Shown here piece after piece: positions 10,437 through 64,000 of a stretch of DNA of 64,000 bases; positions within the stretch are counted from its first letter, which is position 1; every line of letters begins with the position of its first letter. This DNA comes from Limnobacter sp. MED105. Lineage in GTDB: Bacteria; Pseudomonadota; Gammaproteobacteria; Burkholderiales; Burkholderiaceae_B. The translations under genes and the position numbers were made by a program. The stretch is from NCBI RefSeq assembly GCF_000170915.1, contig NZ_ABCT01000003.1, forward strand, positions 124,001 to 188,000. Direction: 5' to 3'. Under the pieces are notes generated by a model. That model was not told the origin of the DNA. It saw nothing but the letters and a program-made list of their open reading frames with translations, and ran no database searches.

Positions 10437-10450
10437 TAAAGGCTTTTGCT

Positions 10451-11626: not shown

Positions 11627-11695
11627 TCCTTGTATTCCTTTTTCTGACCCTCCCCGTTATTAGCAACACAAACACATTTCGTGTGGAGAAAGAAA

Positions 11696-12286: not shown

Positions 12287-12315
12287 ACCCGCTCATCTGT
12301 TTACAGGATTTGTTT

Positions 12316-12342
12316 GGTCACCCAGCAATGGGTGGCCTTTTT
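12316..12342 (+). terminator. Rho-independent terminator
   Basis: GGTCACCC (12316-12323), loop AGCAAT, GGGTGGCC (12330-12337) and then five T. It lies 29 bp after the glycine-zipper gene. Confidence 0.85.
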
Positions 12343-12420
12343 CGTTTGAATGGCCGGTTGTGGAACCAGTTGAAATTGTGAGGCACTCAATTCAAATTTC
12401 CCCTTGAACGGAACCTCCAC

Positions 12421-12882
12421 ATGACAGCATTGAATGACCCCGACTTGATCAAGGCACTGGCCGCCTGGGTGGGACAACTGAAAAGCCCCTATCATGAGGA
12501 CAAACAAGTGAACAAATATCCCGTGAAGCTGATGTCAAGCTCTCCAAACGCTTGGCTTGAAATCAAGCAAATTGACCAAGGCATGATGGAAATAACCTGT
12601 ATTCACAGGGTAATGGAGCAAGACGAGCACAGTGACCTGGAAGGCATACGCAAAGAATGTAGTCAATTCAATGCCTTGATGGAGCGCGTTCGGCTTCCCG
12701 CTTATATGTGGGAGGACAGCCACAAGGCCGAATTTCAGCTACGGTGGCAAGAAACATTGGTAACCCAAGCCGACCTAAAGTATGTGCAACGATTTTTTGA
12801 ACAATCACTTTACCTGGCCAACGCCTTGCAAAGCAGGCTGGGCTGGGCACTGAACAGTCAGCCCCAGCCACTTAGTCACTGA
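12421..12882 (+). CDS. Hypothetical protein
   Basis: A 153-residue protein I do not recognise. It has no signal peptide or membrane segment. It is mildly acidic and contains several aromatic residues (YMWEDSHKAEFQLRW) and a helical C-terminus. It lies between a terminator and the convergent htpG gene, so it is probably a single-gene transcript. Base composition is like its neighbours. Confidence 0.6.
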   Translation: MTALNDPDLIKALAAWVGQLKSPYHEDKQVNKYPVKLMSSSPNAWLEIKQIDQGMMEITCIHRVMEQDEHSDLEGIRKECSQFNALMERVRLPAYMWEDSHKAEFQLRWQETLVTQADLKYVQRFFEQSLYLANALQSRLGWALNSQPQPLSH

Positions 12883-12891
12883 ACACGCCAA

Positions 12892-14790: not shown

Positions 14791-14862
14791 GTTATTGCTC
14801 CCTTCATCTTCTTGGTTTGGATGTCGGAGATGTGGGGACAAAGTTCAGGATTTCAAGACGAG

Positions 14863-14888
14863 AAAAAAGGCCCCAAAGGACCTTTTTT
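14863..14888 (-). terminator. Terminator directly after parC
   Basis: AAAAAAGG (14863-14870) and CCTTTTTT (14881-14888) pair around a 10-nt loop and overlap the parC stop codon. The A/T-flanked symmetry means it could also act on the other strand, but no gene there needs it. Confidence 0.65.
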
Positions 14889-17209
14889 TAACTGAACTTG
14901 CGCAAGCTATCTGCCTTGAACTTGATATCCAGTTCCTTGCCTTTTCGACCACGTTTGCCAAGGCGCTCAGCCAATAAGGCGGGTTTCAGAACTTCCTCGC
15001 GATCTTTACCTCCCCGGCCTGTACCAGCTACCACCAGGCTGTCTGCGGGCCCGAAGGCAACGGCAGCCACCAGCGTGTCTTTGTCATCAAGCGGCAACAA
15101 CTGCACGCCGCGCCCGCCGCCAGAAAGCTGTTTTAGCTCGTCCAGCATGAACACATGAAAACGCCCAGACTCAGAAAGCACTGCGACACGGTCGTCTGTG
15201 GGCTGCAACAGCGCTGGTGACAACAACTTTTCACCAGGATTAAGACTGATGAACTGCTTGCCCGCCTTCATGCGGCTTTCCATGTTGCCAGCAGTGGCCA
15301 AAAAGCCGTAGGCGGCGCTGCATGCCAGAAACACAGGTTGTGTGGCCGGTGCGGCCAAGGCGTGACTCAGCGAGCCCCCATTCAACTCGACCAGGCTTTG
15401 GGCAGGAATGCCATCGCCCCTGCCACCAGGCCATGCCGCAACCGGCACACTGAACACTTTGCCCAGCGCATTGCCAGCGCCAAACAAGTAGGTATTGTCG
15501 GTGGTTTTGCATTCAAAAGCCGCATACAAAGCATCCCCAACTTTGAAGCCGAATTGTGCGGCATCATGACCGTGGCCCTGCCGGTTTCGAATCCAGAACT
15601 TCTGCGAGACAATCACGGTGGTAGGCTCTTCAACCACTTTCACTTCCACACTGGCCTTCTCGGCTTCCTCAATCAGCGTGCGGCGATCATCGCCGTAGGT
15701 GTCGGTGTCTTTGCGAATTTCGCCAATAATCCGGGTTTTCAGTTTGCCTTCATCGGCCAGCAAGGCTTCCAGGTCTGCCTTTTCCTCGGCCAGCTTGGCC
15801 AGTTCTTGTTCAATCTTGATTTTTTCAAGACGTGCCAACTGGCGCAGTCGAATTTCAAGAATGTCTTCGGCTTGCCGGTCGCTCAGCTTGAAGGCCTCGA
15901 TCAGCGCAGGCTTGGGTTCATCGCTTTCGCGAATTACCTTGATCACTTCATCAATGTTCAGCCAGGCAATCAGGCGTCCTTCCAGCACGTGAATACGGTC
16001 GTTCACCTGCGCCAGACGGTGCTGGCTGCGGCGGGTTACGCACACTTTGCGAAACTCGATCCAGTCCAGCAGCATGGCAATCAAACCACGCTGGCCGGGG
16101 CGGCCTGCATTGTCGATACTCACAAGGTTAATTGATGTGTTTGTTTCAAGGCTGGTGTGGCTAAGCAGCAGATTTGAGAACTCTTCCACCGACACATTGC
16201 GGCTTTTGGGCTCGAACACCAATCGCACCGCATTTTCCTTGCCCGATTCATCGCGCACAGCATCCAGCATGGCCAACACTTGCGCCTTCAGGTTTTGCTG
16301 CTCGGTGCTCAAACCCTTTTTGCCAGTCTTTACCTTGGGGTTGGTCAGCTCTTCAATCTCTTCAAGCACCTTGGCAGTACTGGTATTGGGTGGCAATTCC
16401 TTCACCACCAGTTGCCACTGGCCACGGGCCATTTCTTCAATGTCCCAACGAGCGCGCACCTTGATGGAGCCCCGCCCACCGGCATAAATTTCTTTCATTG
16501 CACTCGCTGGCGAAATAATTTGCGCGCCACCCGGGAAATCGGGCGCCGGCAAATGACCCATGATGGTGTCCAAGTCAGCATTCGGGTGCTTGATCAAATG
16601 AATCGTGGCCGCGGCCACCTCCCGAATATTGTGGGGAGGAATGTCGGTGGCCATGCCCACTGCAATACCGGAGGCACCATTCAGCAATACAAAAGGCAGG
16701 CGCGCCGGCAGCAGTTTGGGTTCCTGAAAGCTGCCATCGTAGTTCGGAATGAAGTCGACGGTACCCATGTCCACTTCATCCAGCAGCAGCTTGGCAATCG
16801 GGGTTAAGCGGGCTTCGGTGTATCGCATGGCGGCAGCACCGTCGCCGTCGCGGCTACCAAAGTTGCCTTGGCCATCGATCAGCGGATAACGCAGGGTGAA
16901 GTTCTGCGCCATGCGCACCAGTGCATCGTAAGCAGCTTGGTCGCCATGTGGGTGATATTTACCCAACACATCACCCACTACACGGGCAGATTTCACGGGC
17001 TTGGCATTGTTGCCCAGGCCCATTTCATTCATGGCGTACAAAATTCGCCGCTGTACTGGTTTTTGGCCATCGGCGCACTCGGGCAGGGCCCTGCCCTTCA
17101 CCACAGAAATGGCGTAATCCAGGTAAGCGCGCTCAGCATACAAGCCAAGGGTAATCGTTTCAGAATCGTCGCCAGAAGGTGGCGTTGCATCGAGGGTGAG
17201 TTGTTCCAT
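14888..17209 (-). CDS. parC: DNA topoisomerase IV subunit A
   Basis: Type IIA topoisomerase subunit that cleaves and passes DNA to separate daughter chromosomes. The catalytic tyrosine is Tyr130 in [10 protein letters not shown]. The quinolone-resistance region reads [10 protein letters not shown], with Gln91 and Asp95 at the places where E. coli ParC has Ser80 and Glu84. The C-terminal region (about 500-773) forms the DNA-wrapping repeats. 773 residues is a normal length. The partner parE is not in the window. The downstream hairpin overlaps the stop codon. Confidence 0.95.
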
Positions 17210-46416: not shown

Positions 46417-49400
46417 TCATAGCTTACTAAGCTCCTCCTCCAACCGAGTGGCTTCAGGTATGCCAAGCGCAATGAGCGATGCGACAAGAGTGTCAATGGC
46501 AGGCCGCAACGACGCTCTGTTGCTGAAGCTGGTCGGACTGAGTGCCCGGATGGCCTCCATCAATAAGCACCAGCGGCGGCCCACGCCGTGGTCGATCCAT
46601 AGCTGGCGGAAATCAGGATAGGCCTCGATCCATGCACGTCCGGCCCCGACGATTACATCCAGTTGCTCAGCTCGTGGCGCAACCTCAAGCAGGTTGAGCA
46701 GTACCAGGGCGACGAAGGGTGACGGTCCTTTGCTGAGCAGTTTGCCCAGAACAGGGAGAAACGGACCGACTCGCTCTACGCCCTTCTCAAACAGGTAGCA
46801 CTTCGATCCCTGGCCATACATGTAGTCGTTAAAGAACAAGACGGCGATTGCCGGGCCAATGTGCATTTCGATGGACAAATCCCTGCTTCGGCTGAGACGT
46901 TCCCATCCACGCGTGGTCAGCATGTGGTCGGCGAGTGCGCTCCGAATGTCTACGGCCACCTTCGTCGGAATGTTGTCGCCCTCAAAGTACACCGCGTCGA
47001 TGCTGCGCAAGAAATCGACAACCACGTCGTAGAAATTCCGGTCTGGAAGCGCAACAATATGCCGCACGGCCAGTTCAGTGGCCTCAGGCGTTGACAGACC
47101 GACAACGCAGCGTGCAGCCGCCGCAAAGAACGTTTCGTTCCACTCAGATGGCGGACGATCTGTTTCGTCTCCGTCGTCTAGGTTCGCTCCATTTGCGAGG
47201 GCCGTCCAAGGCATGTAGGCTTTCACGATCTCGCTGAGCCAAGGGCGCGTGTCATCGTGGGAAAGAGCGCGCACTTGGCCCGACCAGAGAGCCGCAGCCT
47301 GATGATTTACACGCTCTGTTGGCGAAGGCGCCGGCGCTTCTGGTGGTTCTGGTGTAGCAATCCGGGATCCAGGTAGGCGTAGTCGCCTTCTCGACCGAAT
47401 TTGCTCTACCGGAAATGTCGGCCACGTTGGCTCCGGGCCTCCGCCGTCAAGCCATGCCATCTCAGCAGCAACGGTAGCCCGCGCCCGTTCATGACTGCGC
47501 ATTTTGCGAGCGTCGACCTCTTCTTGCGACGCATCCCAAGCTCGGTTCTCCACGACACTCGCGCTAAATGCACATCGGAGTACAGCTCTCGGTAGGCGAC
47601 TATCGACGTCCGCTAAGACTGCGGCTGACGTCCCGAAGCCATGCGCTGCAGCGTGGTTTCCTGTCGCCGCTACCTCAAGAACCGATCGCACGTCTTCTGG
47701 CGTTGACCGATGTCGCAAGGAGTGGATCAACCCGGCATAGGCGATTGCTGCAGGATTGAAACGCAAACCTCCTCGAATCTGACGTGTAGAATCATCGTCG
47801 AGAGTTGCAAGCGTCTTGCCCAGTTGAGATCGCGCCCATTCTCCGTGCTCGGCACGCAACGCATCATCGCCGTCCCGCATGACGATCATTGCAGCCGTCA
47901 CAACCGCTTCTTCTTGCATGCGCCGCTCTCCGCCGTCATCGTCGGATTCGACTTGCGTAGTAACCGTCGCAGAACGCCGCGCCCAAGCAATCGCTGCCGA
48001 CCGACCCTCAGGGGGCAACCGAGCCGGATCGTCGACCGCAAGTGTCAACGTAGACAGCGTTGCTAAGTCGGACTCTAGCTCAGTCGAGGTGTCTCGCAAA
48101 GCTTGTAGATGAGTCTTCTCTGCCGCTGGTGATTCATACTTGCGTACAGTCGCGGATGACCCGTCCTTGAGCATCACTTCGACTTCTGGCCAATTTGCGG
48201 CATCAGAGAGATTCAGCGCGTGCTGAACCATGAATTCTGGGTTGCCCAGATGCGCGCTCGCAGTAGGTTCGCCCAGGCGTGCTGCCCCGGTCGCCAACAA
48301 CGTCCGTAGTTTTGCGAGTTGCTCCGGGGATGCCAGGAACGTGAACTTGCCAATCAGTTCGTCGAGCGTTGTCCGTCTGGATGGACGGCGCTTCAGGTCA
48401 GCGGCGGCCAAGCTGACGCGCGGTTCGCTACGCAAAGCGCCAAGCTCGAAGAAGTCAGGCATTTCGACGCAATCATTCACCTGACGCGTGTGATCGATGC
48501 ACAGCAGTTCGGGGCAGCTGAGAAAGGCCGCCGCTACCTCAAGCGATTTGGGCCAATGTGAGATCATTAGATCAACCGCCACCAGCAAGTACGCAGCGCA
48601 TGAGCCCTGCGGCCCGAGTACGTCTGTCAGCACAACTTCGAGTGCTTCGCCCGCCTCGATGCGGCGGTGCGCCCAGGCTTCGAGTGCCATCAGCGCGGAC
48701 GTGACAGCGTAGAAACTGCTGTTGCGTGACCAGAAGTAGGTTTGCATCCACGGGAACGTGCGCACACCCCCCGGCAAAGCCAAGTCAAACTCATTCGTCC
48801 CTGGGTCAGCACCTTGGCTTCCGTGTTCGACTGCGTGTGCGACCAAGCGATGAACCAAGGCCAACCCGTCCTTGGGCGAGTTGGTCAACAAATCGAGGAA
48901 TGGACCTTGTGCCGGCGATGACGGAAGGAACTCATGATCGACATAGGTAAACGCCTCCTCGCGCTCCACTCCGAAGTGGCGGTCTTGTCGCTGGGGCTTT
49001 GCGATCAACGCCTGTGCGGTTAGGTCGGCCAGCTCTGCAGGGGCTGCTTGCGCCATCGTGCCGTGCCTCTTCAGTATGCTGCGCACGATATCTTCGTTGC
49101 GCTCGCTGTTTCGCACTGCCGTCAGGTATTCGGCGGCCAACTCCGGTGTTGTCCGTGCGAACATGACGAACGCATCGCGAAGGTGCGATTTCAGGGACTG
49201 GACCCCGTCGCGATCAAGGTGCGCACAGAACACACGGCCCTCTCTCGGCGTCGAAATTGCATCTCTTGGCTCCATCAACCTCAGCCAACGATAGATCTGT
49301 CGTGTAGTAAACGGCGTTATATCGGTGGCGCAGAATGTTCCGAGCGAGAATTCCGCGAATAATTGAACGACCTCTGGAATGGCTTCATCAGGAACTCTAT

Positions 49401-51600
49401 CTCCGGTACCCAAGAGCCAGATAATCAATCTCGTCCATGTAGGGCCGCGCGGGACGTTGATCGATGCGGGTATGAGCGCGGGGGCGACTCCCGCTGCCGC
49501 AAAGACCTTTGAGGCCGGAAGCACGTCGACAGCCATGACCGTTCGGATCAGTTCTCGCAGCACTTCGGCGCCATTTGCGAGAAGCTCTGGCGATGCGCGT
49601 TGGAAAAGTATTTTGGCAGCCTCAGATCGAGCGAGGGCGAGCAATGCGGCGCGACGCCAAGAACGATGAATACCCGCTCGGCTTAGCCGATCAACTAGCG
49701 CGTGCCACCTCACGCCATCAGTCGCACGCTCGATTGCCATGCGCGCTGCCAGTTCGACGCCACGTGCAAACATAGCCGTTGCTGGCCGATCTAGTTGCAG
49801 CCTGTCGACGAGTTCGGGATCGGCGTGCACGGCGCTCGCAATCGCCCACTCGCTCAGTACGTCATGACGAAACGCGACCCGGTCAATACCCAAATCCCGC
49901 AGAGTGCCGCTGGACACCAGCGCGTCAATCGGCGCCGCGGATTGGCCTGTAACGTCGAGGAAGTCAGCGCCAGACAAGGTCTGCGTTGCTGCGCTTTGCA
50001 GTAGTCGAGTCCGATCACGCCACCCGGCGTCACGTGTGCCGTCCGCTGTGGACCACCACTGCTCGGCCATGTCGACTTCAGTGCGCGGTATGGGATCAGA
50101 TGCTGGCTGATTCGCCAGCCGTGCGAGGCGAAACAGGTTTCTGGCGATCTGGCGTGCGGGATGGCTGTCCGTTAGAAGGGGCACAAGCGAAGGATCAGTC
50201 ACCTTCAACTGCTCAATCTCCAACGTGCTCAGTTCACCAATCGTGATCGGGTCGGTTTGAACCAGGCGTGCCAGCGCATCGCTCGGCAGCCAGCTGGGCT
50301 CATCAATCCCAAATTCGCGCCGAGCCGTCGCGATCACCGCCACTCCCGGAACGACAGAAGCTTCCCCTACAACATCGACGACCGTGAGCCTCTCCTCTGT
50401 GCTGAAAGAGTCGAGATTGTCCACAAAGATAGTGGCGCCGCCATCATTGGCCAATTCAACAAGCAATTCGCGAAGCGTTCCGTCGAAGCCGAGCTGTGCG
50501 CGCAACGCGGTCCACCCGCGGGGAACACATCGTCCAGGGCTGAGAACGATGATCTGACTTTCGGCTTGCATGGCCTCGGCCATCTGCCGCAAAACACCCG
50601 ATTTGCCGACGCCCGCATCACCTCGGATCTCAACATAGCGTCCGCGGTCCAGTGCTTCGCGCGTTGCGGCAACACGCTCCTGTCGTGCAAGTACAACATT
50701 GCCGACGCGGTTACGAATGTCAGCAAGTGCCAAGCGGGACGACTCGGCTAGCGCGGCTCGGGCCGTAGCGTGCCGACGTTCGCCCAAGAACCGATATCCC
50801 AGCTGCGCGAGAGCTTGCAGTGCTGTCTCGCGGGTTCTGTCGCCGCCGCTTTTCGCCACATCGATTGCTAATTCAATGAGGCTGATCCAGAAGACCCCAG
50901 CCCGCGATGTATCGTCGTTGTGCAGCACACGCACTGCGCGTTCTAGCGCAAGGTCGTGCGATGCAGAGCCGGGGGCCGTAAAGTCGAAAGTCAGAATCTG
51001 CAGCCGGCGCAATAAGAGCCAGACGGTTTCGTTGTCGTCTGGCGAGCCTTCGTCTCGCAGGTGGCTTTTGAAAGTCTTCATGAAGGCGCGCATGTCGTCG
51101 TTTGCCACACCTGTTAGTTCAATTTGGGCAGCAAACGTAGCCGCGTCGCCAATCTGCCGCGCTAGTGTGAGCACATCCTGATATGCCCCATCAATCTTGC
51201 GCGATCCCTTTGTTGTCGCAATTGCCAACTCATACCGTTGCGTCGAGAAGTCATTCCGTTTCGACGCTTCGACGATTTGGCCTACGACTTTACGAAAAAC
51301 AGGATCCGTGGGGGCGAAGGTAATGGATCGTTTGACCTGAACCTCCAGCACCGCTGACTTCCCGGTCACGTTTTCATTGGCGTGGATTATCACGTCGTCG
51401 AGCGGACGCCCCGCATTGGCCTGCTGTAGCGCGACTCGCTCTATCGTGACACCGGGAAGGCCCCGGGCGGGAGCCCCTGCGAGCATGGCTAACAAGTATG
51501 ACGCAGCAACCTGGGCCTCGAAATGGGTGCCCGCTGGCCCGGTACCTAACGTACTCGTCCCTGTATTACTATCGGCCGCTAGTGTCATTTTCCCACTCAT
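46417..51600 (-). CDS. Avs-like STAND ATPase with putative N-terminal nuclease domain
   Basis: A very large protein of 1,727 residues. Residues about 20-180 look like a Cap4/DUF4297-type PD-(D/E)XK nuclease: Asp68/Asp69 in RPLDDVII, then a strand with Glu86, Gln88 and Lys90 (LEVQVKRS, the Q-x-K style core). The STAND-type P-loop NTPase follows, with Walker A GDAGVGKS (327-334) and Walker B IFVDNLDS (391-398). The remaining about 1,300 residues are mostly helical and repeat-like, as in the sensor part of Avs (antiviral STAND) proteins that recognise phage proteins and then cleave DNA. Base composition is clearly more GC-rich than the rest of the island, pointing to separate acquisition. A single-gene unit with a weak Shine-Dalgarno. 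The Avs subtype cannot be assigned by eye. Confidence 0.7.
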   Translation of the reverse strand: MSGKMTLAADSNTGTSTLGTGPAGTHFEAQVAASYLLAMLAGAPARGLPGVTIERVALQQANAGRPLDDVIIHANENVTGKSAVLEVQVKRSITFAPTDPVFRKVVGQIVEASKRNDFSTQRYELAIATTKGSRKIDGAYQDVLTLARQIGDAATFAAQIELTGVANDDMRAFMKTFKSHLRDEGSPDDNETVWLLLRRLQILTFDFTAPGSASHDLALERAVRVLHNDDTSRAGVFWISLIELAIDVAKSGGDRTRETALQALAQLGYRFLGERRHATARAALAESSRLALADIRNRVGNVVLARQERVAATREALDRGRYVEIRGDAGVGKSGVLRQMAEAMQAESQIIVLSPGRCVPRGWTALRAQLGFDGTLRELLVELANDGGATIFVDNLDSFSTEERLTVVDVVGEASVVPGVAVIATARREFGIDEPSWLPSDALARLVQTDPITIGELSTLEIEQLKVTDPSLVPLLTDSHPARQIARNLFRLARLANQPASDPIPRTEVDMAEQWWSTADGTRDAGWRDRTRLLQSAATQTLSGADFLDVTGQSAAPIDALVSSGTLRDLGIDRVAFRHDVLSEWAIASAVHADPELVDRLQLDRPATAMFARGVELAARMAIERATDGVRWHALVDRLSRAGIHRSWRRAALLALARSEAAKILFQRASPELLANGAEVLRELIRTVMAVDVLPASKVFAAAGVAPALIPASINVPRGPTWTRLIIWLLGTGDRVPDEAIPEVVQLFAEFSLGTFCATDITPFTTRQIYRWLRLMEPRDAISTPREGRVFCAHLDRDGVQSLKSHLRDAFVMFARTTPELAAEYLTAVRNSERNEDIVRSILKRHGTMAQAAPAELADLTAQALIAKPQRQDRHFGVEREEAFTYVDHEFLPSSPAQGPFLDLLTNSPKDGLALVHRLVAHAVEHGSQGADPGTNEFDLALPGGVRTFPWMQTYFWSRNSSFYAVTSALMALEAWAHRRIEAGEALEVVLTDVLGPQGSCAAYLLVAVDLMISHWPKSLEVAAAFLSCPELLCIDHTRQVNDCVEMPDFFELGALRSEPRVSLAAADLKRRPSRRTTLDELIGKFTFLASPEQLAKLRTLLATGAARLGEPTASAHLGNPEFMVQHALNLSDAANWPEVEVMLKDGSSATVRKYESPAAEKTHLQALRDTSTELESDLATLSTLTLAVDDPARLPPEGRSAAIAWARRSATVTTQVESDDDGGERRMQEEAVVTAAMIVMRDGDDALRAEHGEWARSQLGKTLATLDDDSTRQIRGGLRFNPAAIAYAGLIHSLRHRSTPEDVRSVLEVAATGNHAAAHGFGTSAAVLADVDSRLPRAVLRCAFSASVVENRAWDASQEEVDARKMRSHERARATVAAEMAWLDGGGPEPTWPTFPVEQIRSRRRLRLPGSRIATPEPPEAPAPSPTERVNHQAAALWSGQVRALSHDDTRPWLSEIVKAYMPWTALANGANLDDGDETDRPPSEWNETFFAAAARCVVGLSTPEATELAVRHIVALPDRNFYDVVVDFLRSIDAVYFEGDNIPTKVAVDIRSALADHMLTTRGWERLSRSRDLSIEMHIGPAIAVLFFNDYMYGQGSKCYLFEKGVERVGPFLPVLGKLLSKGPSPFVALVLLNLLEVAPRAEQLDVIVGAGRAWIEAYPDFRQLWIDHGVGRRWCLLMEAIRALSPTSFSNRASLRPAIDTLVASLIALGIPEATRLEEELSKL

Positions 51601-52932: not shown

Positions 52933-53520
52933 TCAGCGTAAAGCTACTTGTTGAGCAATAATGTCGCGACCAAACGGGATTGAGGCTTCCTCAAATTTCC
53001 TTCCTTTCCGGTAATACTCGACCTTGCACTGAAAGTTGAACCGGTCAAGTTCAATAAAGACACCAAGCATATATCCACAAACATGCTCTGGCGGAGTTCT
53101 GCCATCACCGCTGCAAAAATCATCTAAATGAGTTTTCGTCAGGGCCCTAAGTCGCTCACGGTCTTTTTGCTTTTCATCGTAGGGTCTATCCACCTTCTTT
53201 ACTTCAACTGCAATCAGATTATCTTGATTAAGAATTACGCCGCGACTGTGAAGAATGACATCGCAGTTAACACGAACCACTCTTCCTTTGCCGTTCATGA
53301 TGGTCTTAATCTGCCCCTGCTGCTTTCGATTATATTCAACATCCACCAAATAAATCTCATGTATCCCGTATTGCTGGGCTGTCTCGTGCATGTAAATGGC
53401 CAAGCGTCCGCAATTAGAGCGTTCGTTAACCCCTTCCAAAATCTCCTGAACTTCATTCGTCAAGAACCGAGAAAGAGTCGTATCCAATACCTGTCGAACT
53501 TCATCATCCGTTATTGGCAT
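52933..53520 (-). CDS. Predicted PD-(D/E)XK nuclease-fold protein
   Basis: 195 residues with a restriction-endonuclease-like pattern: Glu33 in NERSNCGRLAIYMHE, then a DVEYNRK stretch, Asp87 in CDVILHSRG, and Glu106-x-Lys108 in LIAVEVKK. The E...D...ExK order with the NERS and EYNR signatures recalls a widespread uncharacterised family of accessory genes. Probable DNA or nucleotide-directed nuclease; not proven. A GAGGAG Shine-Dalgarno precedes the ATG. It lies 28 bp downstream of the TIR/deoxyribosyltransferase-like gene and is likely co-transcribed. Confidence 0.7.
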   Translation of the reverse strand: MPITDDEVRQVLDTTLSRFLTNEVQEILEGVNERSNCGRLAIYMHETAQQYGIHEIYLVDVEYNRKQQGQIKTIMNGKGRVVRVNCDVILHSRGVILNQDNLIAVEVKKVDRPYDEKQKDRERLRALTKTHLDDFCSGDGRTPPEHVCGYMLGVFIELDRFNFQCKVEYYRKGRKFEEASIPFGRDIIAQQVALR

Positions 53521-53548
53521 CTCAGCTCCTCACAATCATTTGCGAATC

Positions 53549-54319
53549 CTAAAACAAAATCTCATCGTCTTTCTTATCCGGACGGGTCAGCACAAATTGA
53601 GCCTCGTTAGCATCAATCCACTCCCACCCAAGATCTACAACCGCCAGCCCAGCGTAAGCCTCGCCAGTCTGTTCATCATGAATATCTTGCTCTCGAACAA
53701 ACTTTTTCTGCAATAACCTCCGAACGGCTAAGTTAAAACCCATATTCGTTACTCCCGCCCTTTCTGCTGCCCGTTTGGCGCTATTTACCGTTGTTGCTTG
53801 ATCTGGCAAGTATGCGTCGCCGGCCACTACAGCGAGCACTAGAACTTCTGGAGGTGAGAGACCATGAACTGGCATGACTGGACTCTCTTCCGCTATCTTC
53901 TCAAGTACAGCATCCTGATTAACTATTGCCGCAATTTTAGCTGTGAGACTTGCGCGGAGCTTGTCGAAGTCGCTCGGAGCGTCGGCCAAATAAGGAATTA
54001 TGCTCCTGTGCTGAATATCGAACGGGTACTTCTTACCGGTTCTTTCCTCTGAGCAAACCATAACCACCGGCTTTCCTGCCGCAAAAGCGAAGCCGAGTTC
54101 ATACCACACATTGGGGTTATCTGCTGTGATATCAGCAAGACACACAACGGCTTGTCGTATACCCTTTTCAATTGAGTCGATTGGAACTTGAACGCCTGGG
54201 TCCTGATCAACCCTGTAAGCTTCAAGTCCAGCAGCTTCTATTGCAGGTCGGTATATATCATTAAACCGTTTGTCGAACTTGCCTGAGTCGAACGGTTGAA
54301 TCACAAAGCAAGTTGCCAT
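53549..54319 (-). CDS. TIR / nucleoside 2-deoxyribosyltransferase-like protein with C-terminal domain
   Basis: 256 residues. The N-terminal domain (1-125) opens MATCFVIQPFDSGKFDKRF and carries ADITADNPNVWYELGFA, where Glu74 sits at the catalytic-glutamate place of the NDT/TIR-like superfamily. Such domains hydrolyse NAD+ or nucleotides in several anti-phage systems. The C-terminal part (130-256) looks like a winged-helix module (AERAGVTNMGFNLAVRRLLQKKFV). The start at 54319 has GGAG 6 nt upstream, better than the ATG at 54331. First gene of a two-gene unit with the nuclease-like protein. Confidence 0.75.
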   Translation of the reverse strand: MATCFVIQPFDSGKFDKRFNDIYRPAIEAAGLEAYRVDQDPGVQVPIDSIEKGIRQAVVCLADITADNPNVWYELGFAFAAGKPVVMVCSEERTGKKYPFDIQHRSIIPYLADAPSDFDKLRASLTAKIAAIVNQDAVLEKIAEESPVMPVHGLSPPEVLVLAVVAGDAYLPDQATTVNSAKRAAERAGVTNMGFNLAVRRLLQKKFVREQDIHDEQTGEAYAGLAVVDLGWEWIDANEAQFVLTRPDKKDDEILF

Positions 54320-54680
54320 CAATTTCTCCATAAGACATAATTTGGTCCATCGTGAAATAAAGTAGGTACCCGTTTATAGGAAAGTCATAAAAAAACACCA
54401 AAAACTTAAGACTCTTATAGCCTAAGATAAGTAATATTATTTATAAATCTCTTTAATCAAAATCGAAATTTTGGTAATTATTAAATGAAAATTCGGCAAG
54501 ATTAATATAAGCATCTCAATTCATAAATAAAGAAAATCGAAATAATACCAACAACAAGATCAAAGTTAACCTTAACCGAATAACAACTATCAACCCACCA
54601 CTCATTAATCCGAGCAGCAACGTGGGCCACATACTTAAAATTGAAAACCGAGCCCTAATATCAATTAGGACTCGGTCGGA
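54320..54680. other. 361-bp AT-rich gap
   Basis: No gene seen. It is very AT-rich and contains the terminator of the BRCT gene at its right end. The promoter of the TIR-like gene should lie in the left part but no clear hexamers stand out. Confidence 0.5.
54644..54676 (-). terminator. Rho-independent terminator after the BRCT gene
   Basis: ACCGAGCCCTAAT (54647-54659) and ATTAGGACTCGGT (54664-54676) form a 13-position stem with one mismatch and a 4-nt loop, followed on the minus strand by TTTTCAATTTT. It starts 5 bp after the stop codon. Confidence 0.85.
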
Positions 54681-55541
54681 TCATGCAAACAAATGTGGTC
54701 TAACTAGCCTCAAATTCTGCTCAGTCAATACTCGCAAATTCGGTGCATCCGCTTTCCTTAAATCCATGGCAGCCTGAATTTTTCGTCCGTATGTTGAAGT
54801 GATCCAACCCACTGCGGTTTCGTCCCCTACGACGAGGTAATTGGTCTTAGTGGTGACGCTAGCGCGAAGCACGCCGCCCAGTCCGACAACACGTTCCTCA
54901 ATCACTTTTCGAAATCCTGTTTTGCCACCGAACTTGCCGGTGAATACAAGTACTGATCCCTCAATCACCACATCGTCGACTTCATCAAAATCACACAGCG
55001 GAACTTGATCTTCGCTGATTGAACCAGTTGAGGAGTAGTCAACCTGGGCGACTGACTTGATCGTAGCGAGTAGTTGTTCCTTGGTAATGCGCCTTCCGAG
55101 GAAATCTGAAAGTGCTAGCGTGATTTTGTCGAAGGGAAATCGTGAAAACAGATCTTCGTTCTGTCTCACAAATTCAAATAGCACCTTTAATTCCGAGCTG
55201 TTGATATGATCATCAGAAGCCATTCCACTTAACAGACCGAGCAGAGTGCTTTCACAAACCTCCGCCTCCAAGCTGAACAGGCTTTCCAATAAGTCGAGTC
55301 GTTCATCCTGATGGAGTACGCCGACAACCAAAGCGCGATCAAGCAAGAATCCAATGGTAGAAAACTCATCAGAACCAAACAAACCCTCTGCATCAAGACG
55401 CATGGTCTTCAATGCATTCATCTCCATGTCATTGAGCTTTTGATCGGCAGCCACACCAAGCAAAAATCCTCTTAGCCTTGCACGTGCTGATCGAATACTC
55501 TGAGCCCGCTGACAGGTAAGCATCATGCCGTTCACGCTCAT
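54681..55541 (-). CDS. BRCT-domain protein with TerB-like helical N-terminus
   Basis: About 286 residues from the ATG at 55541. The C-terminal about 90 residues form a BRCT domain of the ligase/RFC type (VLVFTGKFGGKTGFRKVIEE, LGGVLRASVTTKTNYLVVGD, KIQAAMDL). The N-terminal half is helical with two similar acidic blocks, LLGVAADQKLNDMEMNAL and LLSGMASDDHINSSELKVLFEFV, resembling the metal-binding repeats of TerB-like proteins. BRCT domains bind DNA ends or phosphopeptides. It follows the upstream small gene by one base. Function unknown. Confidence 0.7.
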   Translation of the reverse strand: MSVNGMMLTCQRAQSIRSARARLRGFLLGVAADQKLNDMEMNALKTMRLDAEGLFGSDEFSTIGFLLDRALVVGVLHQDERLDLLESLFSLEAEVCESTLLGLLSGMASDDHINSSELKVLFEFVRQNEDLFSRFPFDKITLALSDFLGRRITKEQLLATIKSVAQVDYSSTGSISEDQVPLCDFDEVDDVVIEGSVLVFTGKFGGKTGFRKVIEERVVGLGGVLRASVTTKTNYLVVGDETAVGWITSTYGRKIQAAMDLRKADAPNLRVLTEQNLRLVRPHLFA

Positions 55542-55542
55542 A

Positions 55543-55977
55543 TCAAGCTGCCTTGGAGAGCTTTGACACATCGCTTGTGAAGGTGACCTTGACGCCTGTA
55601 AGCGCACAGATCAACTCTAGATCCCGGTCTGTGTTGACGTCCAAATCTTTGCCCAATAGACCTTGCATGTAAGCAAGATAAAGAAAAGAGCCTACTTTCT
55701 TGAGTTTGGATTTCACTTCAGGATCAACACCACCCTTCCATACGGCTAGCGGCAATGCACCTTTTTCAAATGACTGCTTTAAATCCAATTCTATTGATTG
55801 ATCACGCCTACCGTTCTCCCAAGCCAGAATCAATCCGGAGTCTTCCGCTTTCAATCTTTGATCGAACGATAAATTGCGACTGTCTCGAATTGGCTCGGTT
55901 ATACAACGAGTGATGTGGGGCATTGGTATTCCCAATAAGGAGTAATTACCCGAATGTAACGGGTATTTAACAATCAC
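55543..55977 (-). CDS. Hypothetical protein, partner of the BRCT gene
   Basis: 144 residues from a GTG at 55977 (GAGGGG upstream), or 126 from the ATG at 55923 (weaker Shine-Dalgarno). I do not recognise it. The N-terminal region is charged (RDSRNLSFDQRLKAEDSG) and the C-terminus includes VNTDRDLELICALTGVKVTFTSDV. No membrane segment or catalytic motif is obvious. Stop TGA is one base from the BRCT start, so the two are translated from one message. Confidence 0.6.
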   Translation of the reverse strand: MIVKYPLHSGNYSLLGIPMPHITRCITEPIRDSRNLSFDQRLKAEDSGLILAWENGRRDQSIELDLKQSFEKGALPLAVWKGGVDPEVKSKLKKVGSFLYLAYMQGLLGKDLDVNTDRDLELICALTGVKVTFTSDVSKLSKAA

Positions 55978-56184: not shown

Positions 56185-56412
56185 ATGAGTACAGAGTATC
56201 TAACCACCGCCGAACTCGCCGGGCGGCTCAAATACGATGAGCGAACCATCCGTGAAAAACTCATGGATTCTGTGTTGCTTGAGGGCGTGCATTACCTGCG
56301 TCCATTTGGGCGTCGCAAGATTCTTTTTATCTGGCAAGCCATTGAAGAGGATTTGAGCAAGGGCACAAAATTCTCCGTGCCCATGGCCAACGGAGGTGTT
56401 CTCCATGGCTAG
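56185..56412 (+). CDS. Excisionase-like helix-turn-helix protein
   Basis: 75 residues. YLTTAELAGRLKYDERTIREKL forms a winged-helix/MerR-like DNA-binding helix-turn-helix, followed by the basic wing FGRRKILFIWQAIEEDL. Small proteins of this sort just upstream of an integrase act as excisionases or directionality factors. GAGG lies 7 nt before the ATG. The last 8 nt (ATGGCTAG) overlap the integrase start. Confidence 0.78.
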   Translation: MSTEYLTTAELAGRLKYDERTIREKLMDSVLLEGVHYLRPFGRRKILFIWQAIEEDLSKGTKFSVPMANGGVLHG

Positions 56413-57670
56413 TATTCGCACCCGGAAGCAGACCGGAAAACTGTACCTGGACTTTTACTTTGATGGTGCGCGTTACAGGGAGCAAACTGCCCTGCCCGAC
56501 ACACCGGAGAACCGCACCAAGCTCAGTAAGCTTGCAGACAAACTTGAGCGGGAAATTGCCAGAGGCAAATTTAACTACGCCGAGTTCTTCGGCAAACCCG
56601 CCAAGGAACCCCGTGTAAAGGCCTCTAATGCGTATCCGCGAGCTGGTAGTAATCAACCTGGTTCTGGCGTACAAACAACGCTTCAGGCAAACGCGGCTGC
56701 GGCGCAGACGCCCACTTTCGCGGAGTTCTTGGAAATTTGGCGAAATGAAAACTTCGTGCAGTTTCGAAAGAGCTACCAAAGAACCGTGGATGACATCTTC
56801 AAGGCCCACTTGGTACCCAAGTTTGGGAATACGAGGGTCGGAGACATTCGACGGGAAGACCTTTTAACCTTTCGCTCAGTCCTCGCCAAAGCACCGGGGC
56901 GTAAAGGTTTAACGATGTCTCCCAAGCGCGTGAACGCGATCATGGCTCTGATGAGTCAGATCATGAGTGAAGCCTCCGACCGGTATCACTTTAGCAATCC
57001 GTACCAAAATATCAAGTCACTTCGCTTGCGCAAACCCGATGTGGAGCCATTTACCTTGCAAGAGGTGAACCTGATTCTGAACACGGTTCGTGAAGACATG
57101 CGCAATTACTACATTGTGCGGTTTTTCACAGGCATGAGGACGGGCGAAATCGATGGGCTGAAATGGAAGTATGTTGATTTGGAACGTCGCCAAATTCTGA
57201 TCCGTTCCACCATTGTGGCGGGCATTGAGGAAGAAGACGGCAAGACCTACGACTCCATCCGGGACATTGAGATCTCGGAAGTCGTGTGCCAAGCCTTGAA
57301 ACGACAGAGGCTTGTGACGTTTCGTAAGAGTGAGTACGTCTTTTGCAACAGCGTGGGTCAACCTTTGGACCACAACAACGTGACCAAGCGGGTTTGGTAT
57401 CCCCTACTTCGCCACCTTGGGCTTGCACGCAGACGCCCGTACGTGACCCGCCACACTGCGGCCACCCTGTGGCTGGCTGCAGGAGAAAACCCCCTTTGGA
57501 TTGCCAGACAGCTGGGGCACAGCTCAACTGAAATGCTCTACAAGGTCTACGGTCGGTTCGTTCCCAACCTGACACGCCTTGATGGCTCGGCTTTTGATCG
57601 ACTGCTGGCCACTAACACCAACATTGGTGAACTGGGCAACGCTTTGCAACTGGAGGTGAAAAATGGGTAA
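56405..57670 (+). CDS. Tyrosine recombinase (phage-type integrase)
   Basis: About 421 residues. The N-terminal arm-binding domain is of the DUF3596 kind (SIRTRKQTGKLYLDFYFDG), then a SAM-like core-binding domain (TFAEFLEIWRNENFVQF), then the catalytic domain. Active-site residues: Arg in FTGMRTGEIDGL, the R-H pair in YVTRHTAATLWL with the second basic residue in RQLGHSS, and the nucleophilic Tyr in YKVYGRF. I start it at ATG 56405 with GGAGG 8 nt upstream rather than GTG 56396. It overlaps neighbours by 8 nt on both sides. It lies 11 kb from the tRNA arm sites, so it may belong to a different insertion. Confidence 0.9.
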   Translation: MASIRTRKQTGKLYLDFYFDGARYREQTALPDTPENRTKLSKLADKLEREIARGKFNYAEFFGKPAKEPRVKASNAYPRAGSNQPGSGVQTTLQANAAAAQTPTFAEFLEIWRNENFVQFRKSYQRTVDDIFKAHLVPKFGNTRVGDIRREDLLTFRSVLAKAPGRKGLTMSPKRVNAIMALMSQIMSEASDRYHFSNPYQNIKSLRLRKPDVEPFTLQEVNLILNTVREDMRNYYIVRFFTGMRTGEIDGLKWKYVDLERRQILIRSTIVAGIEEEDGKTYDSIRDIEISEVVCQALKRQRLVTFRKSEYVFCNSVGQPLDHNNVTKRVWYPLLRHLGLARRRPYVTRHTAATLWLAAGENPLWIARQLGHSSTEMLYKVYGRFVPNLTRLDGSAFDRLLATNTNIGELGNALQLEVKNG

Positions 57671-59035: not shown

Positions 59036-61240
59036 CTAACCGACAGAAAGGGCTCTAACCCAGCGGAGCGCCTCGTCGAGCTCTAGGTAAAGACTGGCGT
59101 ATGCTTTTCGGATCAAATTATCTGGTAGAGCCCAGTCCCATTTTTCACGTTGAAGATTTTTTGCATTCGTTAAGAGGATTTCCAGTGGAGGTAGCTGATT
59201 AATCCCAAGCTCCGCCAAAACTTTCAATATTTCCTGTGCAGACCTGCTCCCCTTATGAACCTCGACGCCTGGCCCAGCTGCGGTGGCTATGAATCCTCGA
59301 TGAGTTAGAAGACAAGCGATTGCCTCATTTGCTCCATCTCCCAACCAGGTCATGAGCTGCGTTTCCTGTCCTTGATCTATCAACAGCTTGCTATCAAGGC
59401 CTATACGTGAGTATGCATCTCTGGCTTGTTTTAGGAATCGTTTCGCAGTTTCATCGAGAAAAACAGGCATGTCGCTAGACTCCAGCAGATCACGCATCTT
59501 CTGCCGAACTCGGGTGTGCGTGCGCCCCGCCCCCCCTGAGAATAAGGGAGGTGCCCCGCCAGACGTTCGAGTTACATAGATTGTCTTTAGCTCTTCGTCT
59601 ATTTGGTCCACTCGCCAAGTTTTCCCGGCAAACAGGATTCGCTGTCCAGGCGTGAGCATCACAGCCACCGGGATGGTCCCTAACTGTCTTCCTCCGGCAA
59701 CAATCCTGAATTCCTCGTCCGCAGCGAAGGCTGCATAAAACGAGTAATGATTAACGAACTTTTCCCCTAGTTGACCATGTAGGAGCGAACCGGAAGAATC
59801 CTGGACAACAAGGTCTTTGGTTCCCAGGCCTCGAAGCAAGTCGACGAATTCTGCCTTGGTTATCCCTAAAAAAGGCGTATTTGAAGAACATAGTAGCCCA
59901 TAGAGTTCCCCAGCTGTAGCACCTCCAGTTTGCGCAATACTCGACAAAATTTGCTGCACCAGCGTGGACAGGTGCAGTCCGCCTGTTCGAGGTGGTTCAA
60001 ACCAGTTTTCCAGCAGCAGTTGAACCATGGCGGTTGTTTGAACAGTGCCCAGTCTCAGTAAGTCGCTAAGCGAGGAGTTTTGGCCAATCTCCTCTTCTAC
60101 ACAGTAGCCCCGAAGAATCGCGGGCTCTCCTTTTCTACGGCCGGAGCGGCCCAGTCGTTGCCGCAAACAGGCGACCGCAGGTGGTGGTCCAATCTGGACA
60201 ACACTTTTAACGGAGCCAATGTCGATTCCAAGTTCTAGTGTATTGGTGCAAATCGCCGAAGCAGGCATCTCTTTTTGCTTCAAGGCGGCTTCGGTCTCTG
60301 CTCTGATTTCTTTGGACAAGCTACCGTGATGCGGCCAAAACTCATTGGGAACCTGGTTGTGTTCGCAGAGCTTGTTTAGCAGGTGCGTGTACCGTTCTAC
60401 CTCCCGGCGAGAATTGGGGAATACTAAATTGTTGGAGCCCCGCAGTACCTTGAATAAGTGATTTCCAATCTGTACAGGTGTAATTGGTTCAGGTTCTTCA
60501 TCCTCTTGGCCAGGTACTCTGATAACCAAGGGCTCTTCGTAGCCCTTGATGAGCAATTTGAGCTCGTTGCCTGAAGATTTGGACTCTACCATCGCCACCC
60601 CTTGCCCTTTGCCCGGGCGAAGGAAATCAGCTGCAAGGCGCATGTCCCCCAAGGTTGCAGACAAGCCCACTCGGGATACAGTGCGACCTAGGGCGTGCTC
60701 AATGCGATGCATCAAAGATTGAAGCTGCTTGCCTCGTTCGGAGCCGATAAAAGCATGCAATTCATCAACGATGAAATATCGAATATTTTTAAAAATCGAA
60801 GCTATCGAAGAGCCTCGGTTGCAAAGTAATGCCTCCAGGGACTCGGGCGTAATTAGCAAAACACCGTGACGCTTGGCCACGAACTTTGTTTTGCTTGTTG
60901 AGGAAATATCCCCATGCCACGGCCAGACAGGTATTTCCAGGTTTTCGCAAAGCCGGTCTAAACGGCCAAACTGGTCGTTGATGAGCGCTTTGAGCGGGCT
61001 GATGTAAACAATTAGTCCTTCGCCCGGGGAGTCCTGGAGAAGATGTGTCAATGCCGGAAAAAAAGCAGCCTCGGTTTTACCGGCCGCAGTCGCGGCAGCA
61101 ATAATGACGTCTTTGTCAGCATTCAAAATGAGAGGAATCGCAGCCTCTTGGGCATCTCGAAGTTCCTCCCAACCATCGGCCCAGATGAAACGCTGAATTC
61201 GCTCATCCAGCAAATAGAAAGAGGTACTGTTACCGCTCAT
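59036..61240 (-). CDS. Lhr-like DExH-box helicase
   Basis: Superfamily 2 helicase of 734 residues. Walker A reads AAATAAGKT (48-56), motif II is DELH (159-162), motif III is SAT (194-196), and motifs V-VI include LELGIDIGSV and RQRLGRSGRR. The C-terminal part (about 430-734) has the extra domains of Lhr-type helicases (RILFAGKTWRVDQIDEE, LFSGGAGRTHTRVRQKMR). Such helicases (BrxHI-like) accompany BREX type ATPases. It is the last gene of the cassette, 14 bp after the BrxD-like gene, with no clear Shine-Dalgarno, so coupling is likely. Confidence 0.88.
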   Translation of the reverse strand: MSGNSTSFYLLDERIQRFIWADGWEELRDAQEAAIPLILNADKDVIIAAATAAGKTEAAFFPALTHLLQDSPGEGLIVYISPLKALINDQFGRLDRLCENLEIPVWPWHGDISSTSKTKFVAKRHGVLLITPESLEALLCNRGSSIASIFKNIRYFIVDELHAFIGSERGKQLQSLMHRIEHALGRTVSRVGLSATLGDMRLAADFLRPGKGQGVAMVESKSSGNELKLLIKGYEEPLVIRVPGQEDEEPEPITPVQIGNHLFKVLRGSNNLVFPNSRREVERYTHLLNKLCEHNQVPNEFWPHHGSLSKEIRAETEAALKQKEMPASAICTNTLELGIDIGSVKSVVQIGPPPAVACLRQRLGRSGRRKGEPAILRGYCVEEEIGQNSSLSDLLRLGTVQTTAMVQLLLENWFEPPRTGGLHLSTLVQQILSSIAQTGGATAGELYGLLCSSNTPFLGITKAEFVDLLRGLGTKDLVVQDSSGSLLHGQLGEKFVNHYSFYAAFAADEEFRIVAGGRQLGTIPVAVMLTPGQRILFAGKTWRVDQIDEELKTIYVTRTSGGAPPLFSGGAGRTHTRVRQKMRDLLESSDMPVFLDETAKRFLKQARDAYSRIGLDSKLLIDQGQETQLMTWLGDGANEAIACLLTHRGFIATAAGPGVEVHKGSRSAQEILKVLAELGINQLPPLEILLTNAKNLQREKWDWALPDNLIRKAYASLYLELDEALRWVRALSVG

Positions 61241-61254
61241 TATTTGGCCAACGA

Positions 61255-62553
61255 TTAAAGCTTAAATGAGGCCAAATCTTCATCCTCATCGATTGCCAGG
61301 TCAGCTGCACCCGCAGTGTCGGCTGATATTTCTAATCCACCGAGCAAAGCGGTCCAATCAGTACCGGGGTTTTGCTCCAAAACGGCTAGTAGGTTTACGA
61401 AATGAGTAATGGTAGTGCGCGGAGTTCGGAAGTAAGCATCCCCAATCCGGTTGGAGCAGTGCTCCATGAAGCTAAAAATGCCCTGGTCTGGCAAAAGGTA
61501 TTTGGCCTCATCGCCAAATGCATACACGTGTCTCACCTTTTGGAGCAAAACATAAAAGTCTTCAGGTGTGAGGCTAGATAGCCGAACCACCGGGCCGCTG
61601 AAATCTACTAGTCCGCCCGAGGCAAATGTGTTCTGGGCCAGGCGGCTTTGTAGCGCAGGATAGCTGTACAAACCTCGACGCGTATCCAACAAAAATTCCG
61701 GTGTACCACCCAAAACAAAACCGAGTCCAACGGCGGTCCCCTGCAATGAATCGTTCAGAATTCTGAGAATCTGCTCGTAGTTGGCATTGCGCGCTTGGGT
61801 GTTCGCGAGTTTATACAGATTGACCAGTTCATCGAGGCTGACCAACAGCCCTGCGAATCCAGACAAGCGAATGAATCGGGCCATCAATTTGAGCTGGTCG
61901 TACATGGCCGCGTCATCTACGATTGTCCGAACTCCCAGTGCCTGACGCGCCTCGGTCTTGGTTGTGAATTCTCCGCGCAACCAACGTATTGCATCTGACT
62001 TAAGCTGTTCATTGCCGTCCTCAAATCCTCTGCAGTAAGCAGCAATCACGTCCGCAAAATCATATCCATTGACTAATTCGGTTAGCTGCTCCAGCTTTTG
62101 GCGAAGCACTGCTTCAGTCGAAGTGTTTGATGCTTTTGCTTCTGTCTTACTGGTGGCAATGAATTTCTCAACAATACCGGCAAGCGCTCCACCTTCGGGT
62201 TTGGTACGAGTGGAGAGATTACGCATCAATTCGGCGTAAAGGGAACGGGCTTGACCGCCACTGGCATGGAGTCTGCGGTCCGGATTAAGGTCGGCATTGG
62301 CCACCACGAGTTTCTTCTCGAGCGCTACTGCACGAACCAAGTTCAGAAAGAAGGTCTTACCGGCGCCATATTCACCAATAACGACCCGAAACCCTGAACC
62401 GCCATCCGCGATACGTTCGATGTCTGTTACCAGCGTTTCGATTTCGCGAGTTCGTCCGACTTGGATAAGGTGTTGGCCTGTTCGAGGCACTACGCCTGCA
62501 CGTAATGATTGTGTAACTGCGTCTCGGTCTTTTGGGCGTATTGGTGTTGTCAT
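61255..62553 (-). CDS. BrxD-like P-loop ATPase (DUF2791 family)
   Basis: 432 residues. The N-terminus RDAVTQSLRAGVVPRTGQHLI and IGEYGAGKTFFL (Walker A GEYGAGKT, 60-67) are signatures of the BREX ATP-binding protein BrxD family. Walker B fits FAGLLVSLDELVNLY. Related ATPases appear in BREX systems and in other phage-defence or conflict loci together with Lhr-like helicases. The start overlaps the TerB gene stop by 4 nt (ATGA). None of the BREX hallmark genes (pglX methylase, pglZ phosphatase) is visible in the window. Confidence 0.87.
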   Translation of the reverse strand: MTTPIRPKDRDAVTQSLRAGVVPRTGQHLIQVGRTREIETLVTDIERIADGGSGFRVVIGEYGAGKTFFLNLVRAVALEKKLVVANADLNPDRRLHASGGQARSLYAELMRNLSTRTKPEGGALAGIVEKFIATSKTEAKASNTSTEAVLRQKLEQLTELVNGYDFADVIAAYCRGFEDGNEQLKSDAIRWLRGEFTTKTEARQALGVRTIVDDAAMYDQLKLMARFIRLSGFAGLLVSLDELVNLYKLANTQARNANYEQILRILNDSLQGTAVGLGFVLGGTPEFLLDTRRGLYSYPALQSRLAQNTFASGGLVDFSGPVVRLSSLTPEDFYVLLQKVRHVYAFGDEAKYLLPDQGIFSFMEHCSNRIGDAYFRTPRTTITHFVNLLAVLEQNPGTDWTALLGGLEISADTAGAADLAIDEDEDLASFKL

Positions 62554-64000
62554 GTCTCTAACTTTTCAAGTACTTCAATATTTACGGTAATTGGGTCCTC
62601 GCCCTCAGTAAGTGGCGAATCGTACGCGTCAAACGCAGCCTCGTTGATATGTTCAAGAGCACCGTCTAACATCAAGTCAAGGTCTGCGGCAACATCAAGA
62701 AGCTCTTCGCGTGTCCATTCGGGACGCGAGAGAAGCAGTCTAGCCAACGAGCTGTGGGATTCATCCAGACCAAGTAAGCTCGGCACGGAGGAAGACTCCT
62801 CATTTTCTGTGATTATTTTTTCCTCAATCAGAACAGGCGCCAATACTTCCTCCTCTCTAAAGATACTGGATAGCAAAGCAGACACCTTTTCAGTGTCTTT
62901 TTGAAGCTCGGCAATTCGTGCAGTATCCAATTTGAATCCAGCATTTTCAACTTTAGGGGCTGAGTGCTCAATAATTTCCGTCTTGGACTCAGACGTCGCT
63001 GCTGTGTGGATGTCGCCAAATACCTTTTTGGGTTCTACCCCGAGGGCCTTATAAATTTTCTCCAGCATTTTTATTTCGTCTGGGGAAACATCCCCATCTG
63101 CCTGGGCAACCGCCGCCATGAACGAAGCCAGAGTGTCCTTAGCAGGTTGCTCAAGCAAATCCAGTCTTTTCTTCAATGCCGGTAAGGAAACAGGCGTTGT
63201 GTGTAGAAGTCTGAGATGTGCTTTGAGACGTTGTTTGTGCGTGGAAGTTAAATCTCGCGCTGTTTGAATTTGATTTGTTAAACGGGTGAGTTCTTGGGCA
63301 GAGAAGTCGCCATCAGCGTTGGCTACAACCGCCGAGAGTTGTAGCGTCAACAAAGCAGCCTGATATGCCGGTGAATACTTGAGATGAGGCTCAATACGAG
63401 GCTCTGGAAAAAGCACCACTGTTTCACTAAGACTGGGTGGAGTTGCACCGTGCAATACATTGGGTTCCATCCCAATATCGAGGGCTTCCAAAGCCTTGGC
63501 GAGGCCCAGTACTTTGTCCTTGGTGGGTTGCGCCTGCTTCTCGAAAGAATTGAGCAACTCAGAGAAAGACATAGCAAGTAGACCACCCCCCATGCGTTTT
63601 TTGAGGCTGTCTAGTGCTTGTTTCAATTTATCAGGCCAAGCTTCCGCAGGCAGCAAAAGCATGGCATCAAGGCTATTTGCTTGATTGGAACCACGGGCTA
63701 AAAACCGGCTGTAGGAGTCAAGCTCATTGGTAACCTCATCGACTATTTTTCGAAGTTTTCCAAGTGGTGCGGTCAGCACGGTCACGTCGGGAGTATCTCC
63801 GAAACCTAGCTTGATTTCGTTGTAACCATGAAATCCTGAAGAAGCCGGTCTGTACACAAACTTCAATTTAGTCTTATTGCGAGGAAGGCTTATCCCGCCA
63901 CCAAATTCTCGCTGATATCGAAGTAGGAATAACTTGTCAAACTCTTCTACGCAGCGAGTAGCGGGCGTGCGAAGTGATATGGCGGGATCAAGTTTTACCC
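62550..64000 (-). CDS. TerB/TerB_C domain protein (5' end outside window)
   Basis: The frame stays open from its stop at 62550 to the window edge at 64,000, so at least 483 codons are present and the start lies beyond. A TTG at 63866 is unlikely to be the start because coding continues upstream without a stop. The middle holds a TerB-like helical domain with two acidic repeats, VANADGDFSAQELTRL and VAQADGDVSPDEIKMLEK, likely metal-binding. The last about 120 residues match the TerB_C domain (LLLSRPEWTREELLDVAADL and LMLDGALEHINEAAFDAY). Full-length relatives usually also carry a TerB_N domain, which would lie off the window. First visible gene of the cassette. Confidence 0.85.
   Translation of the reverse strand, partial: VKLDPAISLRTPATRCVEEFDKLFLLRYQREFGGGISLPRNKTKLKFVYRPASSGFHGYNEIKLGFGDTPDVTVLTAPLGKLRKIVDEVTNELDSYSRFLARGSNQANSLDAMLLLPAEAWPDKLKQALDSLKKRMGGGLLAMSFSELLNSFEKQAQPTKDKVLGLAKALEALDIGMEPNVLHGATPPSLSETVVLFPEPRIEPHLKYSPAYQAALLTLQLSAVVANADGDFSAQELTRLTNQIQTARDLTSTHKQRLKAHLRLLHTTPVSLPALKKRLDLLEQPAKDTLASFMAAVAQADGDVSPDEIKMLEKIYKALGVEPKKVFGDIHTAATSESKTEIIEHSAPKVENAGFKLDTARIAELQKDTEKVSALLSSIFREEEVLAPVLIEEKIITENEESSSVPSLLGLDESHSSLARLLLSRPEWTREELLDVAADLDLMLDGALEHINEAAFDAYDSPLTEGEDPITVNIEVLEKLET

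Follow-up and report, generated by a model that had tools for sequence, protein, structure and literature searches.

A very probable Shango anti-phage operon in a defence-like island of Limnobacter sp. MED105

Three adjacent genes on the minus strand of Limnobacter sp. MED105, lying at one end of the 64,000-nucleotide (nt) stretch of DNA analysed here as a whole and called the window (contig NZ_ABCT01000003.1, our C44, positions 124001–188000), very probably make up a complete Shango anti-phage system, sngA–sngB–sngC. Judged from the sequence, we put the probability of this identification at about 0.93, because the PADLOC models, the gene order and the domain make-up of the proteins agree. The operon is thus already known in kind and is one more copy of a published, laboratory-tested system. 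The first-pass annotation of this DNA, which spoke of a stand-alone defence module, missed the known Shango system, recognised by PADLOC and described in PMC10250203.

Gene layout and identity of the three proteins

The open reading frames (ORFs) of the window bear out the three same-strand genes described by the first-pass annotation, the third of them running open to the window edge (Table 1). The first and second genes of the operon, sngA and sngB, overlap by 4 nt (62550–62553), and a gap of 14 nt (61241–61254) separates sngB from sngC; the overlap, the gap, the domains and the motifs were graded as far beyond chance. When followed past the window, sngA is complete at 788 residues, with an ATG start at C44:188916, which is position 8916 of the locus L002 (ORF L002:6550–8916, minus strand). 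The 916 bp beyond the edge add most of the TerB_N domain and two predicted N-terminal hydrophobic helices, so that the TerB_N domain for which the first-pass annotation had advised reading on was found directly past position 64,000.

The domains and motifs named by the first-pass annotation, that is, a TerB protein, a BrxC/BrxD-family ATPase with GEYGAGKT and a superfamily 2 (SF2) helicase with DELH, were recovered in the Pfam matches and the translations. In Pfam, the 788-residue protein matches TerB_N (E = 1.9e-64, the sole match to this family in the assembly), TerB (2.3e-12) and TerB_C (8.5e-34), the 432-residue protein matches BrxC_BrxD (PF10923, which we take to be the former DUF2791; 2.5e-152) and the 734-residue protein matches DEAD (2.3e-30) and Helicase_C (2.6e-13). 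The top PADLOC models for the three are SngA (4.8e-103), SngB (1.6e-180, over residues 2–432) and SngC (4.4e-277, over residues 5–729), so each of the three model matches that define Shango is present, in adjacent genes on a common strand and in the order A–B–C. SngA, SngB and SngC are named as Shango proteins in PMC12278908, PMC10221251, PMC11096173 and PMC11973324.

The Shango of Pseudomonas aeruginosa PA14 is made up of three proteins, one TerB-like, one an ATPase and one a DEAD/DEAH helicase; when placed in strain PAO1, it lowered the plating of many phages by a modest 10–100-fold and gave strong protection of liquid cultures (PMC10250203). Shortly before, a Shango that inhibits two phages ~10-fold had been reported from Escherichia coli (reference 22 of PMC10250203, which according to a table in PMC10952713 is Millman et al. 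2022). The mechanism was given as unknown in 2024 (PMC10855318), and our literature search, which drew mostly on listings and had bioRxiv preprints outside its scope, did not find one.

Conservation, distribution and alternatives to Shango

A scan of a genome collection with SngB gave 415 relatives, of which the best 80, ranked by SngB similarity rather than sampled at random, were kept, with start codons chosen by rule. The first-pass annotation had proposed a search for the three-gene order across genomes; here a sngA-like sequence is found in 79 of the 80 loci and a sngC-like sequence likewise in 79. The exact 4-nt overlap of sngA and sngB recurs in 76 of the 80, and in 75 the distance from sngB to sngC is −29 to +34 nt. 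After short, open-ended or stop-containing ORFs were dropped, the 79, 80 and 79 matches left alignments of 74 (SngA), 79 (SngB) and 72 (SngC) rows, the window included.

In these alignments SngB is the most conserved protein, with 212 of its 432 positions at least 97% conserved, followed by SngC (202 of 734) and SngA (72 of 788), whose identity to its 73 relatives is 33–56%. Every position of GEYGAGKT is at least 97% conserved among the 79 SngB sequences, and DELH is invariant in the 56 SngC sequences (of the 72 rows) that were used for modelling. In the E. coli proteins, which are more distant, the motifs read GEYGSGKT (SngB) and DEFH (SngC). The E. coli operon, annotated as a TerB N-terminal protein, an ATP-binding protein and a DEAD/DEAH helicase, keeps the A–B–C order and aligns almost end to end at 31, 62 and 43% identity for SngA, SngB and SngC; its best PADLOC models, and those of the P. 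aeruginosa PA7 locus, are likewise SngA, SngB and SngC.

The first of two alternatives to Shango is a degenerate or fragmentary type 2 bacteriophage exclusion (BREX) system, in which a left-over BrxD and BrxHI would have come to lie beside a TerB gene by chance. BrxD and BrxHI do form a tight pair in type 2 BREX (PMC12839542), and SngB is distantly related to BrxD (PADLOC 2.3e-46) as SngC is to BrxHI/BrxHII (1.1e-113), but the Shango models score far better (1.6e-180 and 4.4e-277), SngB reaches 152 bits against a cut-off of 350 in the NCBIfam BrxD equivalog, and a TerB gene accompanies sngB in 79 of the best 80 of the 415 loci. PglZ gave no match at E ≤ 0.001 in the assembly, which is 95.93% complete, while the positive controls matched in 2 of 14 genomes. 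No methylase (PglX) or BrxC was found among the neighbouring ORFs scanned, SngB aside, a genome-wide search for these two not having been made. On the model scores, the BrxD cut-off and the want of a PglZ match we reject a BREX remnant as extremely improbable, and the first-pass view of a stand-alone three-gene defence module distinct from BREX agrees with this.

The distribution is patchy, as is typical of mobile defence systems: the SngB model matches none of 148 other related genomes (1 of 149 with its own), yet 694 of 72,556 plasmid records carry a SngB relative, 665 of them at 60–80% identity and 29 below. At the DNA level, at least 43 of 5,426 E. coli genomes gave a match, in each case a partial one that covers less than 80% of the gene.

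This pattern bears on the second alternative, in which the operon is of the Ter type and serves the response to DNA damage or stress in general, without being primarily anti-phage. TerB domains were reportedly first linked to stress systems by Anantharaman and Aravind in 2012, and that early link would favour such a role, as would the fact that a known activity for the TerB protein was not found. Patchiness of this order is, however, that of mobile defence rather than of housekeeping genes, and protection against phage has been measured for Shango in PAO1 (PMC10250203). We regard a Ter stress operon as very unlikely.

Departures from the common layout were each seen in one locus. In a Rubrivivax metagenome-assembled genome (MAG; L007), a gene for a 388-residue Schlafen AlbA_2 protein (PF04326, 1.8e-13), a possible accessory part, lies between sngB and sngC at 11327–12493 (+). 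A Hydrogenophaga MAG (L023) has at the same place a 436-residue protein (11449–12759, +) with TerB_C as its only Pfam match (1.9e-21), and a SngA match was not found in that locus; this may be a variant architecture, and the single locus hints that TerB_C is the part obliged to stay with SngB and SngC. In Acidovorax sp. NO-1 (L059) a sngA-like gene stands downstream of sngC (13564–14960, +) and is cut short where the locus ends, with what by eye is a remnant of the sngA 3′ end directly upstream of sngB. In L039 sngB and sngC are in pieces. In the E. coli locus L085, sngA comes after an AbiEii-type pair, and a large hypothetical gene follows sngC (10414–14810, +). Islands that hold Shango and AbiE together with the antiplasmid system ApsAB have been described (PMC11096173).

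Protein models and a possible mode of action

The model of SngA, built from the 74 sequences, has a mean predicted local distance difference test score (pLDDT) of 83.1 and a predicted template-modelling score of 0.69. It consists of helices at residues 9–23 and 27–48, a low-confidence stretch at 49–99 and globular domains thereafter; the N-terminus is hydrophobic, with a best 19-residue Kyte–Doolittle mean of 2.15. A Foldseek search of the PDB with SngA gave 231 matches at E ≤ 10, none of them reaching 0.001. The five strongest are weak (E 0.022–0.23) and point to TerB: four are chains of 2h5n, an uncharacterised protein of P. gingivalis that is probably TerB-like, and the fifth is 2ou3, a tellurite resistance protein. 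These matches probably fall on the TerB domain. A PDB sequence search with SngA returned one match, to titin at E = 0.1, taken as chance; the same search with SngB returned none at E ≤ 0.1. The AlphaFold model of SngC (mean pLDDT 85.4) is closest in fold to Lhr of Mycobacterium smegmatis (5v9x), with E = 8.9e-29, 22% identity and a TM-score of 0.65 relative to query length. No nuclease is present among the Pfam matches of the three proteins or among the fold matches listed for SngA and SngC. A nuclease hidden in SngA was considered and rejected, there being no fold match to E 0.001 and no nuclease among the matches listed.

BrxD has been classed as an ORC–Cdc6 AAA+ ATPase, with the loading or activation of BrxHI suggested as its role (PMC12839542). 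Carrying this suggestion over, we propose tentatively, and at rather less than even odds, that SngA, SngB and SngC form one predicted complex in which SngB, as an AAA+ type ATPase, would assemble, load or control the SngC helicase on invading phage DNA, while SngA, which its N-terminal helices would tether to the inner membrane, would scaffold, anchor or gate the SngB–SngC pair through TerB and TerB_C. Because the operon yielded no nuclease, phage DNA would most likely be obstructed or unwound, or passed to a host nuclease. A stronger form of the proposal, which we consider doubtful, is a nuclease-free machine in which a membrane-anchored TerB scaffold brings a loader of the ORC/Cdc6 kind and an Lhr-type helicase to phage DNA as this enters or replicates at the membrane, and the DNA is stopped by unwinding or occupation alone. 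What the conservation map and the models mark out in this respect are the N-terminal helices of SngA, a possible docking role for TerB_C and the absence of a recognisable nuclease. Of the first-pass suggestion that the TerB protein senses damage or phage at the membrane or through metal, the membrane part fits the two hydrophobic helices predicted for SngA, and no result obtained speaks to metal; the sensing itself is a proposal.

Some points weigh against a Shango complex anchored and acting in this manner. A strongly hydrophobic N-terminus, by a simple Kyte–Doolittle threshold and with rule-chosen starts, is present in 44 of the 74 SngA sequences, its own included, so membrane tethering may not be universal. 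No fold match of SngA, among the 50 best of the 231, identifies TerB_N or TerB_C, and an unrecognised enzyme may possibly be hidden in the protein. The protection given by PA14 Shango did not, moreover, extend to every phage assayed (PMC10250203). The main rival for the mechanism, in which the identity as Shango is kept, is a cell-killing role for SngA: Shango would kill or arrest the infected cell, with SngA as a membrane effector once the ATPase and helicase have detected phage DNA. An effector would be in keeping with the two hydrophobic helices of SngA and with the fold matches listed for SngA and SngC, which include no nuclease. Against it stands the hydrophobic N-terminus, for which no more than 44 of the 74 SngA sequences passed the threshold, and we think this rival somewhat unlikely.

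The surrounding island and comparison with known systems

As the first-pass annotation had observed, the operon lies in an island with other defence-like genes, the neighbours having weak defence matches (Table 1). To one side are two proteins with a weak likeness to Avs4 and to TIR, respectively, another that ends in a BRCT-like domain, and a tyrosine integrase; to the other are three ORFs without a family.

Table 1 Features of the operon and its surroundings (window positions, or positions in locus L002 where so marked)
Feature	Position	Strand	Description
1727-aa protein	46417–51600	−	weak Avs4 (PADLOC 8e-09) and PDC-M54A (9.1e-10) matches
Two adjacent genes	52933–54331	−	195 aa, weak PD-Lambda-3_A (8.8e-06); 260 aa, weak TIR effector (4.7e-09)
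308-aa protein	54681–55607	−	C-terminal BRCT-like domain (PF00533, 0.00033; 21.2 bits vs 21.3)
Tyrosine integrase	56396–57670	+	Arm-DNA-bind_2, Phage_integrase; near the Shango operon
sngC	59036–61240	−	SF2 helicase, Lhr/BrxHI kind, 734 aa, DELH motif
sngB	61255–62553	−	BrxC/BrxD-family ATPase, 432 aa, GEYGAGKT Walker A
sngA	62550–64000 in window	−	last 482 codons and stop: TerB, TerB_C, very end of TerB_N
286-, 903- and 678-aa ORFs	L002:9082–14620	−	overlapping, directly upstream of sngA; no family match above cut-off
Low-complexity ORF	L002:14700–15041	−	repeated SGKV units; at island edge

The 1727-residue protein is perhaps a divergent Avs-type defence protein by its sequence, its NCBIfam Avs4 match (9.4e-09) scoring 33 bits where the cut-off is 1500. 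The 260-residue protein also matches nucleoside deoxyribosyltransferase (4.8e-06, below cut-off), and the 308-residue protein weakly resembles polymerase III epsilon and LigA in their BRCT regions. The tyrosine integrase is a possible mobiliser of the island. The G+C content is 49.9% in the operon, near the 52.4% of window positions 1–46,000, and 59.1% in the gene at 46,417–51,600.

The first-pass expectation of more genes beyond position 64,000 was right as to the rest of sngA but found no support in the next three ORFs (286, 903 and 678 residues), which have no relative in the 80 Shango loci, some of them short contigs (tblastn, E ≤ 1e-5); the same is true of the three ORFs beyond sngC (424, 276 and 113 residues). 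The upstream genes were accordingly rejected as parts of Shango. The likeness of the 903-residue ORF to Phage_integrase is weak and falls below the cut-off (0.0012); of 299 other genomes of the order, 3 gave matches to this ORF, all weak and partial. The three upstream ORFs are perhaps an unusual recombinase trio.

Bunzi, the proteins of which are presumably BnzA and BnzB, is one of the known systems with which the operon may be compared. It also carries a TerB domain (PMC10952713), but no Bunzi protein name appears among the PADLOC matches listed (for the helicase, the best 25 of 63). Dionysus is a reported defence system with a TerB homolog (PMC12926258), likened here by its description only. 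M. smegmatis Lhr is the best fold match of SngC, at 22% identity; SngC differs in belonging to a defence operon. In line with the Lhr match, a published phylogeny groups SngC with BrxHI, DruE and DpdJ in a clade that may be distinct (PMC12278908). The BrxD–BrxHI pair of type 2 BREX likewise sets a related ATPase and an Lhr-type helicase side by side; the operon differs in a SngB below the BrxD cut-off, an assembly without a PglZ match and a TerB protein in first place. Shango itself has the same three proteins, the same gene order, the same tight spacing and the same domain make-up, and no departure of substance from it was found in the operon.

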